The position numbers and the translations under genes are program-made. A model generated the notes under the pieces. That model was not told where the DNA came from. It did no database searches and saw nothing but the letters and a program-made list of their open reading frames with translations. A DNA stretch of 27,485 bases, taken from positions 1 through 27,485 of IMG/VR virus record IMGVR_UViG_3300048836_000716, one strand, 5' to 3'. This DNA is from a virus. Below, piece by piece: positions 9,541 to 21,115 of this stretch (positions within the stretch are counted from its first letter, which is position 1; the number at the start of each line of letters is the position of its first letter).

Positions 9541-10836
9541 ATGGCCAAGCCCGTGTCGGCCGCGCCGCGGCTGGGCATCGTCGAGCCCGAGGACGCCGTT
9601 GCCGCGTTCCAGCGCCGCGACCTGCTGCTGCCGAGCTTTCGATGGCACGACGTCTGGCAGCAAGAGCACCTGCGCGGCTTTGCCGTCGCGGGCGTGATGC
9701 GCCACGACATCCTGCAGCTCGTCCACGACGAGCTCGGCGTCGCGCTGCAGGGCGGCGGCGTCGAGCGCGACTTCGTGCGCCGCGTGCGCGCCCGGCTCAT
9801 CGACAAGGGGTTCTGGGGCCGCGTCGACGTGACGCATCCCGATAGCGGCGAGACGCGCACCACGCGCTTCAACGACGCGCGGCTGCGCCTGATCTTCAAC
9901 ACCAACCTGGCCGTGAGCTACGCGGCGGGAAAGGACGAGCGCTTTCAGCGCACGAAGAAGTACTTCCCGTTCCTGCGCTACGTCACCCGCCGCGACGAGA
10001 AGGTGCGCGAGACGCACCGCGCGTGGGACGGCGTGACGCTGCCCATCGACGACCCGTGGTGGGAGCTGCACAAGCCGGTGAAGGCCTGGAACTGCCGCTG
10101 CACCGTGCAGCAGCTCTCCGAGCGCCAGGTCGAGCGGCTGCGCAAGGCGGGCAAGACCGTCACCACGCCGCCGCCCGACGAGATGGTCCAGCGCATCGAT
10201 CTGCGCAGCGGCCAGGCCGTCACGCTGCCGCGCGGCGTGGACCCGGCGTTCGCCTACGACATGGGCAAGCGCCCGCTGCGCGGCGTGGTGCCCGAGCCGC
10301 TGCTGGCTGACCCCTTCGACCGCAGCACGCCCACGCTGCAGCCGGCACTGGCCATGCCGCCGCCGCGCGTCGTCAGCGCCGGCATGCTGCTGCCCGAGGG
10401 CGTGGACGAACAGGACGCGGTGCAAGCCTTTCTGGCTCAGTTCGGCGCGGCCATCGGCCGGCCGGCGCGCTTCATCGACAACACGGGCGAGGACCTGGTG
10501 ATCAGCGACGAGCTGTTCAAGCGCCTGGATGGGCGCTGGAAGGTCAAGCGCGGGCGCGAGCGCTTCGTGCTGCTGCTGGCGCTGGCGATCCAGCAACCCG
10601 ACGAGATCTGGGCTGCGTTCATGCAGCACGTGGCCAAGGACCGCCAGGTGCTGCGCAGGCGCTACCTCGCGCGCTTTCGCATCGAAGGCGACGATAAGCC
10701 GCTGGTCGCGGTGTTCGAGGATGGAGCGGACGGCTGGCTGGGCGTGACGGCCTACCAGGCCGAGAACGAGGCGGCCGAGGAGCTGGTGATTCGGAGTGCG
10801 CGCATCGGCACGCGCCTGTTCAACCGCCAGAAATGA
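9541..10836 (+). CDS. MuF-type head protein (Mu gp30-like) with C-terminal PBECR-type nuclease-like domain
   Basis: A 431-residue two-part protein. Residues about 1-190 are the phage Mu F-like head domain, ending in the hallmark RETHRAWDGVTLPIDDPWW and KAWNCRC (about 156-187). Residues about 288-431 form a separate domain with PARFIDNTGEDLVISDELFK, GRWKVKRGRERFVLLLALAI, QQPDEIWA, RRRYLARF and VFEDGADGWLGVTAY. I recognise this as the PBECR (phage Barnase-EndoU-ColicinE5/D-RelE-like) domain often fused to MuF proteins. MuF proteins sit inside the capsid near the portal and can carry toxin or effector domains ejected with the DNA. RNase activity is a family-level inference; catalytic residues cannot be fixed by eye. 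No immunity gene is obvious next to it. Confidence 0.85.
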   Translation: MAKPVSAAPRLGIVEPEDAVAAFQRRDLLLPSFRWHDVWQQEHLRGFAVAGVMRHDILQLVHDELGVALQGGGVERDFVRRVRARLIDKGFWGRVDVTHPDSGETRTTRFNDARLRLIFNTNLAVSYAAGKDERFQRTKKYFPFLRYVTRRDEKVRETHRAWDGVTLPIDDPWWELHKPVKAWNCRCTVQQLSERQVERLRKAGKTVTTPPPDEMVQRIDLRSGQAVTLPRGVDPAFAYDMGKRPLRGVVPEPLLADPFDRSTPTLQPALAMPPPRVVSAGMLLPEGVDEQDAVQAFLAQFGAAIGRPARFIDNTGEDLVISDELFKRLDGRWKVKRGRERFVLLLALAIQQPDEIWAAFMQHVAKDRQVLRRRYLARFRIEGDDKPLVAVFEDGADGWLGVTAYQAENEAAEELVIRSARIGTRLFNRQK

Positions 10837-16466: not shown

Positions 16467-17234
16467 ATGCCCGGCTTCCTTGGACAAGGCAAAGTGCTCG
16501 TCGGCAACCGTCTCCCGACGGGTCTGCCCGACATCCTGCGCTGGATCGGCAACGCGAGCAAGTTCGAGATCTCGCTCGAGGAGGACTCGATCGAGCGCAA
16601 CGAGAGCTACTCAGGCAGCCGCCTGCCGCTGCGCCGCGCGACGCGCAGCAGGAAGGGCACGCTCTCGATCGTCTTCGACGAGTTCACGAAGGACAACATG
16701 GCGCTCGCGCTGCTCGGCGCCGCGACGGCGGTGGCGGCCGGCTCGGCGCAGACCGGCGTGGCGCTGGCGGCCACCGTAGGCAACCCGGCGGTCGTCGGCT
16801 CGATCCTCGCGCTGCCGTCGAAGAACGTCTCGGCGGTCGCGATCAAGGACTCGACCGGCTCTCCGAAGACGCTCACCGCGGGCACCAACTACACGCTCGA
16901 TGCGTTCGCCGGCACGATCGAGATCATCGACATCACGACCGGCGGGCCCTACGTGATGCCGCTCAAGGCCGACTTCACCCCAGGCGCGGTGAACGTGGTC
17001 GGCGCCTTCAAGCTCGCGACCCCCGAGCTCTACGTGCGCATGGACGGCATCAACACCGACGACGGCTCGCGCGTCATCTGCGACCTCTACCGCTCGCGCG
17101 TGTCGACGACGAAGAACTTCGGCCTCATCACCGACGACTTCGCCGACTTCGAGCTCTCGGGCACGGTGCTGGCCGACCTGACGCGCGCCACGTCGAGCAC
17201 CGGCGGCCAGTTCTTCAGCCTGACCTTGCCGTAA
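16467..17234 (+). CDS. Major tail tube protein
   Basis: A 255-residue protein with TAGGAGATCACC before the ATG, one of the best ribosome sites in the window, as expected for a protein made in many copies. It starts GFLGQGKVLVGNR, then ILRWIGNASKFEISLEED, RSRKGTLSIVFDEF and NMALALLGA. A middle segment (about residues 95-185) reads as an inserted beta domain, and the end is FADFELSGTVLADLTRATSS. The pattern fits the long non-contractile tail-tube proteins of Mu-like phages that carry siphovirus tails. There is no sheath gene anywhere nearby, which agrees with a non-contractile tail. Confidence 0.85.
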   Translation: MPGFLGQGKVLVGNRLPTGLPDILRWIGNASKFEISLEEDSIERNESYSGSRLPLRRATRSRKGTLSIVFDEFTKDNMALALLGAATAVAAGSAQTGVALAATVGNPAVVGSILALPSKNVSAVAIKDSTGSPKTLTAGTNYTLDAFAGTIEIIDITTGGPYVMPLKADFTPGAVNVVGAFKLATPELYVRMDGINTDDGSRVICDLYRSRVSTTKNFGLITDDFADFELSGTVLADLTRATSSTGGQFFSLTLP

Positions 17235-17247
17235 GCGGGGCCGCGCC

Positions 17248-17757
17248 ATGAGCGAGGCCAACAACGCGAAGAACCCGTCGCTGCGCGAGCTGCTCGCGCT
17301 GCCGGTGCAGGTGCCGATCGGTGGCTCGTTCGTCGCGCTCGCGCCGATGGGCTGGATGCAGGCGGCGCACGCGCTCGAGCCGCTGATGTCGGCGCTCGGC
17401 GCGCTGCCGCCGGCGCTCGCCGGCTACGAGCGCATGAGCCGCGACGAGAAGCTTGCCGTCTGGCTCGGCGCGATCATCTCCAACCGAGACGAGCTGGCCG
17501 AATTTGCGGCTCGCGCAAGCGGCTTTGCCCGGCCGGAGGTCGAGCAGCTTCAGCCGCTGCACTTCGCCGAGCTCCTGTTCGCCCTCTTCGAGCTGAACGC
17601 AGATTTTTTTGTACGCAGCCTGCCCGCGCTGCTCGAGCGCGTGGCAGGCCGGCTCCCGGCGTTGAAGGCCAGGCTGCAGGCGAGCCTCGCGGCGGCGACC
17701 GCGACCGCGGCGGCGACGGCGACGGACAAGGCCTCCACCACGTCTTCCAGCGCCTGA
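17248..17757 (+). CDS. Tail assembly chaperone, lambda gpG-like
   Basis: A 169-residue protein between tail tube and tape measure, the invariant place of gpG chaperones. It is helical (LRELLALPVQVPIGGSFVAL, MGWMQAAHALEPLMSALGAL, then EKLAVWLGAIISNRDELAEF) and ends in a low-complexity Ala/Thr/Ser tail. At codons 119-121 (GAT TTT TTT, 17602-17610) it holds a run of seven T in a 70% GC gene, followed by a strong hairpin. This is a programmed -1 frameshift signal that would yield a longer GT form. Such chaperones bind the tape measure and recruit tube subunits, and are not part of the finished tail. ALPVQVPIGG near the N-terminus is a beta hairpin typical of the family. Confidence 0.83.
   Translation: MSEANNAKNPSLRELLALPVQVPIGGSFVALAPMGWMQAAHALEPLMSALGALPPALAGYERMSRDEKLAVWLGAIISNRDELAEFAARASGFARPEVEQLQPLHFAELLFALFELNADFFVRSLPALLERVAGRLPALKARLQASLAAATATAAATATDKASTTSSSA
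17604..17649 (+). promoter_or_regulatory. Programmed -1 ribosomal frameshift signal in G/GT
   Basis: Three elements are in register. The slippery heptamer T TTT TTT (17604-17610) has codons GAT TTT TTT in the G frame. A 7-base spacer follows (17611-17617). Then comes a hairpin of GCCTGCC+CGCGCT (17618-17630), a 5-base loop, and AGCGCG-t-GGCAGGC (17636-17649), 13 base pairs with one bulge. A -1 slip enters a frame that stays open to the TAG at 17976-17978, giving a fusion of 243 residues (121 from G, 122 from T). The order, spacing and stem strength are those of known -1 sites in phage tail chaperone genes. Confidence 0.82.
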
Positions 17758-17786
17758 TCGGCGCCGGGCACCGCTGGAGCGAGGCA

Positions 17787-17978
17787 GTGAACTACACGCC
17801 GGCGCAGACGCGATGGTTCGTGCGGGCGATCGACGCCGAGCAGCGCGAGGCGCACCGCCTCGCGGTGGTCGCCGCGCGCGTCGCGCAGGCCGGCGACGGC
17901 AAGACGGTCGCGAACTACCTCGACGCCCTGAACAACGCCGCCGCGACGGCCGGCGCGCCCAGGCGCCGCCGCGTGTAG
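17787..17978 (+). CDS. T-frame of tail chaperone, expressed as the GT fusion
   Basis: The T frame lies -1 relative to G and is open from before the T7 slip site to 17978. Read as a fusion it runs join(17248..17610,17610..17978), 243 residues. Before the GTG at 17787 the frame already reads like protein (GLHHVFQRLIGAGHRWSEAV), running straight into NYTPAQTRWFVRAIDAEQRE and AHRLAVVAARVAQAG. This shows that 17787 is not the true beginning of the domain. An independent start at 17787 is not excluded, as GGAG stands seven bases before it. The T part of such fusions contacts tail-tube subunits during assembly. The 63-residue ORF ends in a basic RRRR tail, ten bases before the tape-measure gene. Confidence 0.72.
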   Translation: MNYTPAQTRWFVRAIDAEQREAHRLAVVAARVAQAGDGKTVANYLDALNNAAATAGAPRRRRV

Positions 17979-17988
17979 GACGCATGCG

Positions 17989-20900
17989 ATGAGCGACATC
18001 GAAGCCAAGCTGCGCATCAGCGCCGACACCGTGCAGGCGCTGCGCAAGGTGGGCGAGCTGCACAAGCAGATCGCCGGCCTCACCGACGCCGGCAAGGGCG
18101 CCGCGCCGCTCGCCGACGCGAGCACGCTGCGCCCGGTGTCGGACCAGCTCGTGACGATCCGCTCGCAGGCGATGAGCATCCGCGGCCTGCTGAGCTCGGC
18201 GTTCGCGGCGGTGGGCCTGGGCGGCGGCCTGGCCGCGCTGACGCGCTACGCAGACGGCTACGCGGGCCTGACCGCGCGGCTGCGCATCGCGACCGAAGGC
18301 CAGCAACAGTTCAACCAGGCGCTCGACGCCGCGCGCTCGCTCGGCAGCCAGTACCAGCAGGGCCTGCAGGGCGTCGCGCGCCTGATCGACAAGACCTACA
18401 GCGCGATCAAGCCGCTCGGCGGCACGCTCGCCGACGCGACCGGCACGACCGAGGCGCTGCTCGCCGCATTGACGCGCAGCGGCGCGACGGCCGAGGAGTC
18501 CGCCTCCGGCGTGCTGCAGTTCGCGCAGGCGCTCGCCAGCGGCGTGCTGCAGGGGGACGAGTTCCGCTCGCTCGCGGAGGCGGCGCCCGCGTTCCTGGAC
18601 GCGCTCGCCGAGGGCCTGGGCAAGCCGCGCTCGGAGCTCAAGGCGCTCGGCGAGCAGGGCAAGCTCACGAGCGACCAGATCGTGATCGGCCTCGCGCGCG
18701 CGCTGCCCAAGCTGCGCGAGACGGCCGCCGCGATCCCGCCGACGATCGGCGGCGGCTTCACGGTGCTCAACAACGCGATCAGCGAGTTCGTCGGCCGCGC
18801 GGCGCAGACGAGCGGCGTCGCGCGTGCGATCGCCGACGTGCTCAAGCTCGCCGCGGACAACGCAGGCGTGCTCGTCACCGCGTTCGGCGCGCTGGCCGGC
18901 GCGGCGGTGCTGGTCGGCCTCGGTAGCCTGGCCAGCGCGCTCGCCGGCGTCGTGACGGTGACCATCGCCGCCGGCGGGGCGATGTCGGCACTGCTGGCGC
19001 TGATCGGCGGGCCGGTCGGCCTGGTCGTCGCGCTCGGCGCGCTCGCCGCGGGCTGGGGTGCCGTGAGCACAGCCAAGCAGCGCGCACTCGACTCCGACCT
19101 CGGCGCGATGCAGCGTGAGCGCGCGCAGATCCAGGCCGAGCTCGACAAGCAGCGCGCCGAGATCGGCAAGAGCGTATTCAGCTACGCGCCGATCGAGGCG
19201 CGTCGCCTCGAAGAGCAACTCGCCCTGCTCGACGCCAAGATCGCCGAGCTCGAGCGCAAGAAGCGCGTCGCCGAGTTCGAGGCGCTGCGGCGCGGCGAGA
19301 AGGCCGACTTTGGCGGGCCGAATATCCGCGACGAGGCCGGGCTGAAGCGCCTGAGTGACGAGTACAAGACCGCCGCCGAGATCAACCGCAAGTTCGAGGC
19401 CGATCGCCAGCAGCTCGTCAAGGCGAGCCAGGAGAAGATCGCCTTCCTGCGCGAAAGCGGGCGCGAGCAGGACGCGGCGGACCTGGAAGCGGAGACCGCC
19501 GCGCGCCTGAAGGTGATCGACAAGGCGCAGGCCGACGCGCTGCGCAAGGAAGCGCCCGTCGCGAGCCGCGTCGCTGCGTTCAAGGCCTCGTTCGACGCCA
19601 CGCTCGAGCTGCAGCGCGACGCGATCGCGCGCGAGCAAAAGCTCAACCAGCAGCGCTACGACGACGCGCTGCAGGACGCGCGCACCTACCTGGCCGAGCG
19701 CGCGCGCCTCGAAGACCAGGCCGCCGCCGACGACCTGCAGCGCCTTGGCAGCGAGCTGGCCGAACGCCGCCGCACGCTGGCGCAAAACGAGAGCCGCCTG
19801 GCACTGGCGCAGAACCCGAACGAGCGCGAGACGATCGGCGAGGCACTCTTCGCGCAGAAGCAGGAGATCGCCAAGCTCGAAGTCGACATCGCCAAGCGCA
19901 CCCGCGACCAGGCCGACGCCGAGCAGGCACGCCTGCGCGATGCCGGGCTGCTGACGGCCGAGCTCGAACGCCAGCAGCGCGCGATGGGCGCCGACCTGGC
20001 CGACGCGCGGGGCGAGCGCCTGAGCGAAGCGCAGCTGCGCGCGCGCCGCATGGACGAGATGCAGCCGCAGTTCGCCCGCGCGGCCCAGCTCGGCGCGAAC
20101 GCGCAGCCGCTGCTCGATCGGGTGCAGGTGCAGGTGACGCGCGACCTGCTCGCCCAGGTGCGCGAGGACTTCGAGCGCACGCAGCAGAAGATCGCGCTCG
20201 ACGAGCGCACGATCGCCGACGAGGTCGCGGCCGGCCACCTGACGACGGCCGAAGGCGAGGCGCGCGTGCTCGCGCTGCGCGCCGAGCAGATCCCGGCGCT
20301 CGACGCGATCATCGAGCGCATGCGCGAGCTCGCGCAGACCAAGGACGAGCGCGCCGCAATCGACGCGCTGCAGGTCCAGGTCAAGGGTATGAGCGATCTG
20401 CGCACCGAGATCGAGAAGACGGCGCGCAGTGAGGGCGTGCGGGCCATCACGACCGCGCTCGACGACATCGCGACCGGCGCCAAGACCGGCAAGGAGGCGC
20501 TGCTCGACATGGTCGGCGGCTTCGCGCGCGCGATGCTGCGCGTGCTCGAGGCGCAGCTCGCCGAGAAGCTCGTCAAGCAGTTCACCGACGCCGCCGGCGG
20601 CGGCAGCGGCGGCAAGAGCTGGTGGGACACCATCGTCGCGATCGGGAGCAAGGTCGTCGGCCTGTTCCACGGCGGCGGCGTCGTCGGCGCGGGCGGCGGC
20701 GCGACGCGCGCGGTGAACCCGGCCGTCTTCACTTTGGCGCCGCGCTACCACGGCGGCGGCATCGCCGGCCTGCTGCCGGGCGAGCGCCCGGCGATCCTGA
20801 TGGACGGCGAAGAGGTGCTGACCGCGCGCGACCCGCGCCACGTCAGGAACTACCGCGGCGCCGCCAGCGGCAACCAGGTGTTCGTCGAAATCAACGGCGC

Positions 20901-21027
20901 ACAGGGCAGCCCGGCGCAGCAGCAGGCGGGCGGCGCGGACCTGGGCCGCATGGTGCTCGCCGTGGTCGAACAGTGGGCCGCGAAGGAAAGCCGCACCGGC
21001 GGGCTGCTCGCTGGCGCGGGGCGCTGA
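17989..21027 (+). CDS. Tail tape measure protein
   Basis: A 1012-residue protein. Residues about 55-280 are the tape-measure N-terminal domain, with GTTEALLAALTRSGATAEES, VLQGDEFRSLAEAAPAFLDA, LGEQGKLTSDQIVIGLARAL and PTIGGGFTVLNNAISEFVGR. Residues about 295-360 are strongly hydrophobic (VLVTAFGALAGAAVLVGLGS and GGPVGLVVALGALAAGWGAV), the segment thought to enter the host membrane. Residues 365-820 are long charged helices rich in Glu, Arg, Ala and Gln. The C-terminus (GGGIAGLLPGERPAILMDGE, then VLTARDPRHVRNY) is the Gly-rich tip end of lambda-type proteins. By the lambda ratio, about 1000 residues predicts a tail near 150 nm. AGGA lies eight bases before the ATG. Confidence 0.93.
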   Translation: MSDIEAKLRISADTVQALRKVGELHKQIAGLTDAGKGAAPLADASTLRPVSDQLVTIRSQAMSIRGLLSSAFAAVGLGGGLAALTRYADGYAGLTARLRIATEGQQQFNQALDAARSLGSQYQQGLQGVARLIDKTYSAIKPLGGTLADATGTTEALLAALTRSGATAEESASGVLQFAQALASGVLQGDEFRSLAEAAPAFLDALAEGLGKPRSELKALGEQGKLTSDQIVIGLARALPKLRETAAAIPPTIGGGFTVLNNAISEFVGRAAQTSGVARAIADVLKLAADNAGVLVTAFGALAGAAVLVGLGSLASALAGVVTVTIAAGGAMSALLALIGGPVGLVVALGALAAGWGAVSTAKQRALDSDLGAMQRERAQIQAELDKQRAEIGKSVFSYAPIEARRLEEQLALLDAKIAELERKKRVAEFEALRRGEKADFGGPNIRDEAGLKRLSDEYKTAAEINRKFEADRQQLVKASQEKIAFLRESGREQDAADLEAETAARLKVIDKAQADALRKEAPVASRVAAFKASFDATLELQRDAIAREQKLNQQRYDDALQDARTYLAERARLEDQAAADDLQRLGSELAERRRTLAQNESRLALAQNPNERETIGEALFAQKQEIAKLEVDIAKRTRDQADAEQARLRDAGLLTAELERQQRAMGADLADARGERLSEAQLRARRMDEMQPQFARAAQLGANAQPLLDRVQVQVTRDLLAQVREDFERTQQKIALDERTIADEVAAGHLTTAEGEARVLALRAEQIPALDAIIERMRELAQTKDERAAIDALQVQVKGMSDLRTEIEKTARSEGVRAITTALDDIATGAKTGKEALLDMVGGFARAMLRVLEAQLAEKLVKQFTDAAGGGSGGKSWWDTIVAIGSKVVGLFHGGGVVGAGGGATRAVNPAVFTLAPRYHGGGIAGLLPGERPAILMDGEEVLTARDPRHVRNYRGAASGNQVFVEINGAQGSPAQQQAGGADLGRMVLAVVEQWAAKESRTGGLLAGAGR

Positions 21028-21037
21028 GGAGGCAGCG

Positions 21038-21115
21038 ATGACGGCCCCCAAGCTCACTTCGTTCGCTGCCCCCGTGGAGCGCTCAGCGCCCTTGGGGCGG
21101 CCCGGCGGGCGCTGA
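21038..21115 (+). repeat. Hairpin element resembling Burkholderiales intergenic repeats, with a 25-codon ORF
   Basis: The gap between tape measure and tail M holds an imperfect hairpin element. CCCCAAG (21046-21052) and CTTGGGG (21091-21097) close it, with CACTTCGTTCGCTGCCCCCG inside and GGCGGCCCGGCGGGCGCTGA after it. This is very like a short palindromic intergenic repeat I remember as abundant in Comamonadaceae and related genomes. It also forms a 25-codon frame (ATG at 21038 behind TGAGGAGG, TGA at 21113), which could be chance or a leader peptide bridging to the next ATG at 21117. The repeat identity is from memory and needs a genome search. Confidence 0.55.

Follow-up and report, generated by a model that had tools for sequence, protein, structure and literature searches.

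In the G/GT family of tail assembly chaperones the T reading frame overlaps G in the -1 (rarely the +1 or -2) register, and a stimulatory structure downstream is optional. The -1 frameshift in tail chaperone genes is described as widely conserved by Xu et al. (2004), as that study is cited in PMC3483164 and PMC5009743. In phage lambda the binding partner of G and GT is the tape measure protein, and that of T is the tail tube protein (PMC5009743). For ORF 35/36 of phage PaMx73 a shift of this kind was predicted in 2014, with T TTT TTC at codons 116-118, 43 codons before the stop of G (PMC4378225).

The window analysed here, a stretch of viral DNA of 27,485 bases with a GC content of 70.4%, very probably (we put it at about 0.93) contains a programmed -1 ribosomal frameshift in the tail-chaperone gene of a Mu-like siphophage. 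The anatomy of the site can be read directly. G (17248-17757, plus strand) runs from an ATG at 17248 to a stop at 17755-17757 and encodes a tail assembly chaperone of 169 aa. Within it, at 17604-17610, lies the slippery heptamer T_TTT_TTT, which is read in the G frame as GAT TTT TTT and is followed by GTA. T occupies the -1 frame of the same strand from 17610 to 17978 and supplies the C-terminal 122 aa of the GT fusion, ending with TAG at 17976-17978; translation of this frame gives a predicted fusion of 243 aa, with ...ELNADFFCTQPAR as the predicted junction peptide across Phe-Phe. An earlier note on this DNA had pointed to the T-run and its phase, to a 7-base spacer followed by a 13-bp hairpin with one bulge, and to an open -1 frame yielding a 243-residue fusion; all of these are borne out by sequence, fold and translation. 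The -1 frame is already open upstream of the slip site, from 17235, which is to be expected at 70% GC, so its openness is by itself weak evidence.

The heptamer is a marked anomaly in so GC-rich a sequence. It is the sole run of A or T of at least six bases in the whole window, where a first-order Markov model predicts 0.02, and a scan of 12 window genes for in-phase X_XXY_YYZ with Y = A or T returned this site alone. In the same 12 genes TTT is used 8 times against 118 for TTC, and GAT 49 times against 239 for GAC; given Asp-Phe-Phe and this codon usage, the probability of GAT TTT TTT is 0.0007. The remaining two Phe-Phe pairs in the window genes are both TTC TTC.

The identity of the two frames is established by homology. 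G matches the tail assembly chaperone family phrog_1442 (E 7.6e-12), and a profile built from six relatives, the window excluded, finds the G frame as its sole significant match among the window's six frames (E 4.2e-11). The corresponding T profile (five relatives, the window again excluded) matches the -1 frame with an E-value of 1.2e-10, the next best of the six frames scoring 0.18; T also matches phrog_14432 (E 1.2e-4). Upstream, G adjoins a gene for a major tail protein with an Ig-like domain (16467-17234, plus strand; phrog_807, E 6.2e-57), and T is followed by the gene for the tape measure protein (17989-21027, plus strand; Pfam TMP_3, E 1.4e-47; phrog_2335, E 1.1e-75). The resulting order, major tail protein-G-T-tape measure, is that expected for G/GT chaperones. 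The head genes are Mu-like (Mu F, Mu-like protease, Mu gpT capsid and Gp36) and the tail genes are of lambda type (phage_min_tail, tail L and NlpC/P60), which points to a Mu-like siphophage in which the tape measure protein would be the expected client of G/GT. The Mu F-like head protein (9541-10836) ends, at its C-terminus, in a PBECR2 nuclease-like domain (Pfam E 1.2e-26). On the minus strand a 1280-codon frame lies open opposite G, T and the tape measure gene (17215-21057); such a frame is expected at 70% GC, and we do not take it for a gene.

Direct searches with the two proteins recovered little. In the phage collection tblastn gave nothing for G at E 0.01 and one weak match for T (E 0.8), and a PDB sequence search with G found no credible relative. 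When viral contigs were scanned with either protein of the window, a single contig was returned, which is identical to the window across the compared 6.8 kb and therefore adds no independent evidence. The first alignment of G was too divergent for a scan; relatives were accordingly reached by way of the major tail protein, and were also taken from phage records. The scored set comprises 60 distinct loci with matches to both G and T.

In 59 of these 60 loci an in-phase T_TTT_TT[T/C] precedes a T that lies in the -1 frame; the 59 include near relatives and are not independent, and they reduce to 30 representatives at less than 70% identity. The heptamer is TTTTTTT in 32 loci and TTTTTTC in 27. 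The first Phe codon is TTT, and the base before it T, in every one of the 59, although the codon to which that base belongs varies (GAT, GCT, GGT, AGT, CAT or CCT). Three further loci outside the scored table (L043, L081 and L097) have the same arrangement. In several relatives (L010, L082, L084, L089, L022 and L025) no more than 0-12 nt separate the heptamer from the point at which the -1 frame opens; in L010 a TGA overlapping the GAT codon closes it upstream. The single exception, L103, has T5 for T7 and T in the +1 frame (L103:3610-3640). L102, the related prophage copy in the same Actinobacillus genome, keeps T7; no tape measure gene was evident in the stretch of L103 that was read, and the L103 copy looks degenerate.

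Some loci fall outside this comparison. In L024, L027, L031, L033-L035 and L041 the relative of the major tail protein is followed by fibre-like or unknown genes and not by G, which suggests a second copy or a different gene order. Loci of this kind, among them L024, L031, L033 and L106, do not count as counterexamples, there being no G after the major tail protein. Vibrio phage SIO-2 (L014:3717) carries an in-phase A_AAA_AAG instead of a T-run, at 57 nt from the stop of G and with an open -1 frame beyond.

The distance from the slip site to the stop of G is 153 nt in the window. The earlier note regarded this as earlier than usual, a view that does not hold among related loci, where the heptamer stands 81-198 nt ahead of the stop and 153 nt is ordinary. 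Its expectation of a long linker joining the two parts is sound: 48 codons separate the slip site from the T motif in the window, against 24-42 in relatives in which the motif was located. A prediction tool for such sites, trained on phages whose slip sites lie on average 26 nt from the stop, detected few sites past 51 nt in another data set (PMC10885494). This bias toward the stop may be the reason that such early sites often go unannotated. T often lacks an annotation, for example in the records of JBD30, SIO-2 and VW-6B, and correct annotation of G and GT now becomes possible in a large group of Mu-like siphophages.

The same two proteins would result if RNA polymerase, rather than the ribosome, slipped on the T-run, one extra U being enough to place T in frame. 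RNA polymerase is known to slip on homopolymer runs (PMC5009743), and both the T7 of the window and the T8 found at the site in L008 and L010 are homopolymers. In 27 of the 59 loci, however, the run is a short T6 followed by C, yet the exact X_XXY_YYZ phase is kept; moreover, the shift of phage P2 at TTTTTTG is translational (PMC3091744). We regard slippage by the polymerase as improbable, and favour a shift by the ribosome.

A natural control is provided by loci in which G and T share a frame. In L092 (3266-3847) and L105 (3821-4390) the two form one uninterrupted frame, and phrog_14432 aligns with almost the full length of these fusions, phrog_1442 with their G portion. Searching with the L105 protein returned 79 prophage-like loci (including L112-L190). 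In 78 of them a single frame runs through both G and T; the 79th is truncated. None of the 78 has the heptamer at the Phe-Phe position, where the pair is Tyr-Phe. Retention of the heptamer thus goes with a T in the -1 frame, and its loss with a frame common to G and T; the joined proteins also suggest that the two function as a single chain. Many of the fusion genes (L105, L112-L158) have an in-phase TTTTTTC near codon 2 (MNDFF...), which is probably just coding.

It is possible, although we consider it doubtful, that these loci represent one chaperone family in two states: one with a conserved U_UUU_UU[U/C] shift 81-198 nt before the stop of G, the other a single-frame, slip-less clade that perhaps builds tails without separate G. 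If this were true, the need for a large excess of G over GT would not be universal among phages, and the window's group would be the frameshifting counterpart against which the G excess rule could be tested. Together the frameshifting and the single-frame loci offer a natural test of whether the G:GT ratio is required.

Substitution rates reveal the double coding of the overlap. Across 20 non-overlapping pairs of loci, third positions of G before the slip site change at a rate of 0.33, against 0.14 and 0.10 for the other two positions. Within the overlap the rates are spread between the frames (0.11, 0.15 and 0.19), and after the stop of G third positions of T change at 0.32, against 0.09 and 0.14; 85 overlapping pairs agree. 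Variation therefore moves from third positions of the G frame to those of the T frame across the overlap. From 30 to 60 nt past the slip site the pattern is still G-like, which would fit a weakly constrained linker in T.

T might instead be translated alone, from GTG 17787 or another start, and the fusion never made. This GTG is the earliest T-frame start codon 3' of the slip site and is preceded by GGAG; it sits, however, inside the T domain, past the conserved LI..GH motif, so that, as the earlier note had held, a T-like domain begins ahead of the first GTG. In 28 of the 30 representatives the T frame offers no start codon on the way from the slip site to the T domain. Independent translation would also leave the conservation of the heptamer unexplained, and single-frame fusions of G and T exist; we think it very unlikely. 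Equally hard to accept is the proposal that the T-run does nothing but encode a conserved Phe-Phe, for while an alignment of the first seven G proteins shows no variation at N117, F120 and F121, the window's genes strongly prefer TTC (in their other Phe-Phe pairs as well), the T before the first Phe codon persists despite several different amino acids, and the single-frame fusions, with their Tyr-Phe, have lost the heptamer.

Downstream of the slip site, a spacer of 7 nt (17611-17617, plus strand), defined by sequence and fold, leads to a hairpin at 17618-17649 (plus strand) with 13 pairs, a 5-nt loop and a bulged U at 17642. Its folding energy is -27.6 kcal/mol (z -3.67), and none of 200 shuffled sequences was equally stable. 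Among the 13,723 40-nt windows of the plus strand only one, starting at 17615, reaches -30.1 kcal/mol. A wider fold, of 60 nt, stands out less (z -1.9), as expected in GC-rich sequence. The site has no match in Rfam, and nothing there resembles a terminator or a promoter; the reading as a transcription terminator was rejected on the grounds that the T-run lies 5' of the hairpin and that on the opposite strand the run is of A.

The earlier note had suggested examining homologues for conservation of T-run and stem alike. The T-run and both frames are indeed kept, but no comparable stem is present at the corresponding place in the closest relatives (L008, L010 and L020); no relatives were found whose major tail protein has an identity to that of the window between about 58% and 100%. 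In the 30 representatives, 40-nt windows starting 4-8 nt past the slip site are more stable than their neighbours (mean z -0.81; Wilcoxon p 0.001). The strength of the fold is uneven, being strong in the window, L011, L056, L072 and L076, and no downstream fold was found in the 40-nt windows of L013, L082 and L095. The stem is thus not a conserved homologous element, and in the family as a whole stems close to the slip site show no more than modest enrichment; the hairpin of the window is probably a lineage-specific stimulator, not a defining part. The shift is not refuted by the absence of such a stem from relatives, for in P2 TTTTTTG serves without a hairpin (PMC3091744).

Gene identity and order, conservation of the heptamer, the switch in codon phase, the lack of usable T starts and the disappearance of the heptamer from single-frame fusions together support the G/GT frameshift reading that the earlier note advanced. 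While anatomy, homology, codon constraint in both frames and conservation of the heptamer are shown by the sequences, the occurrence of the shift, its efficiency, the stimulation by the hairpin and the roles of the chaperones are inferred, as follows. The majority of ribosomes would translate G to its stop at 17757, giving the 169-aa protein. A minority would pause at T_TTT_TTT, aided by the hairpin, and would continue in the -1 frame to 17978 to give GT; the most likely route is tandem slippage on U_UUU_UUU, the two Phe-tRNAs re-pairing one base back. By analogy with lambda, G would bind the tape measure protein along its length, and recruitment of the major tail protein would fall to the T part of GT. 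Against the frameshift reading counts the fact that in E. coli U_UUU_UUU is much less shift-prone than A_AAA_AAG (PMC5009743).

By arrangement, the window can be likened to lambda, with which it shares gene position, a -1 shift and a short and a long chaperone (PMC5009743), although in lambda the slip site is near the 3' end of G. It can likewise be likened to P2 E/E+E', where a T-run (TTTTTTG) between the major tail and tape measure genes directs a -1 shift (PMC3091744); P2, however, is a myophage, and no hairpin is predicted at its slip site. Stenotrophomonas phage Summit (MZ326862) shares with the window an in-phase T_TTT_TTT, a T read in the -1 frame and the gene order, and its record annotates a tape measure chaperone together with its frameshift product, which is homologous to the window's fusion; it differs in that the slip site lies 102 nt before the stop of G and no notable stem follows. 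PaMx73, a Pseudomonas Mu-like siphophage of the D3112/JBD30 group (Casadabanvirus), likewise combines an in-phase T-run and a -1 shift with tail chaperone genes, and JBD30 has the same arrangement. In this group the major tail proteins are about 30% identical to that of the window, the heptamer is TTTTTTC in place of TTTTTTT, and the downstream fold of JBD30 is different from, and weaker than, the window's hairpin. The window is thus a well-supported further case of a known tail-chaperone frameshift design, one predicted in 2014 for the related PaMx73.
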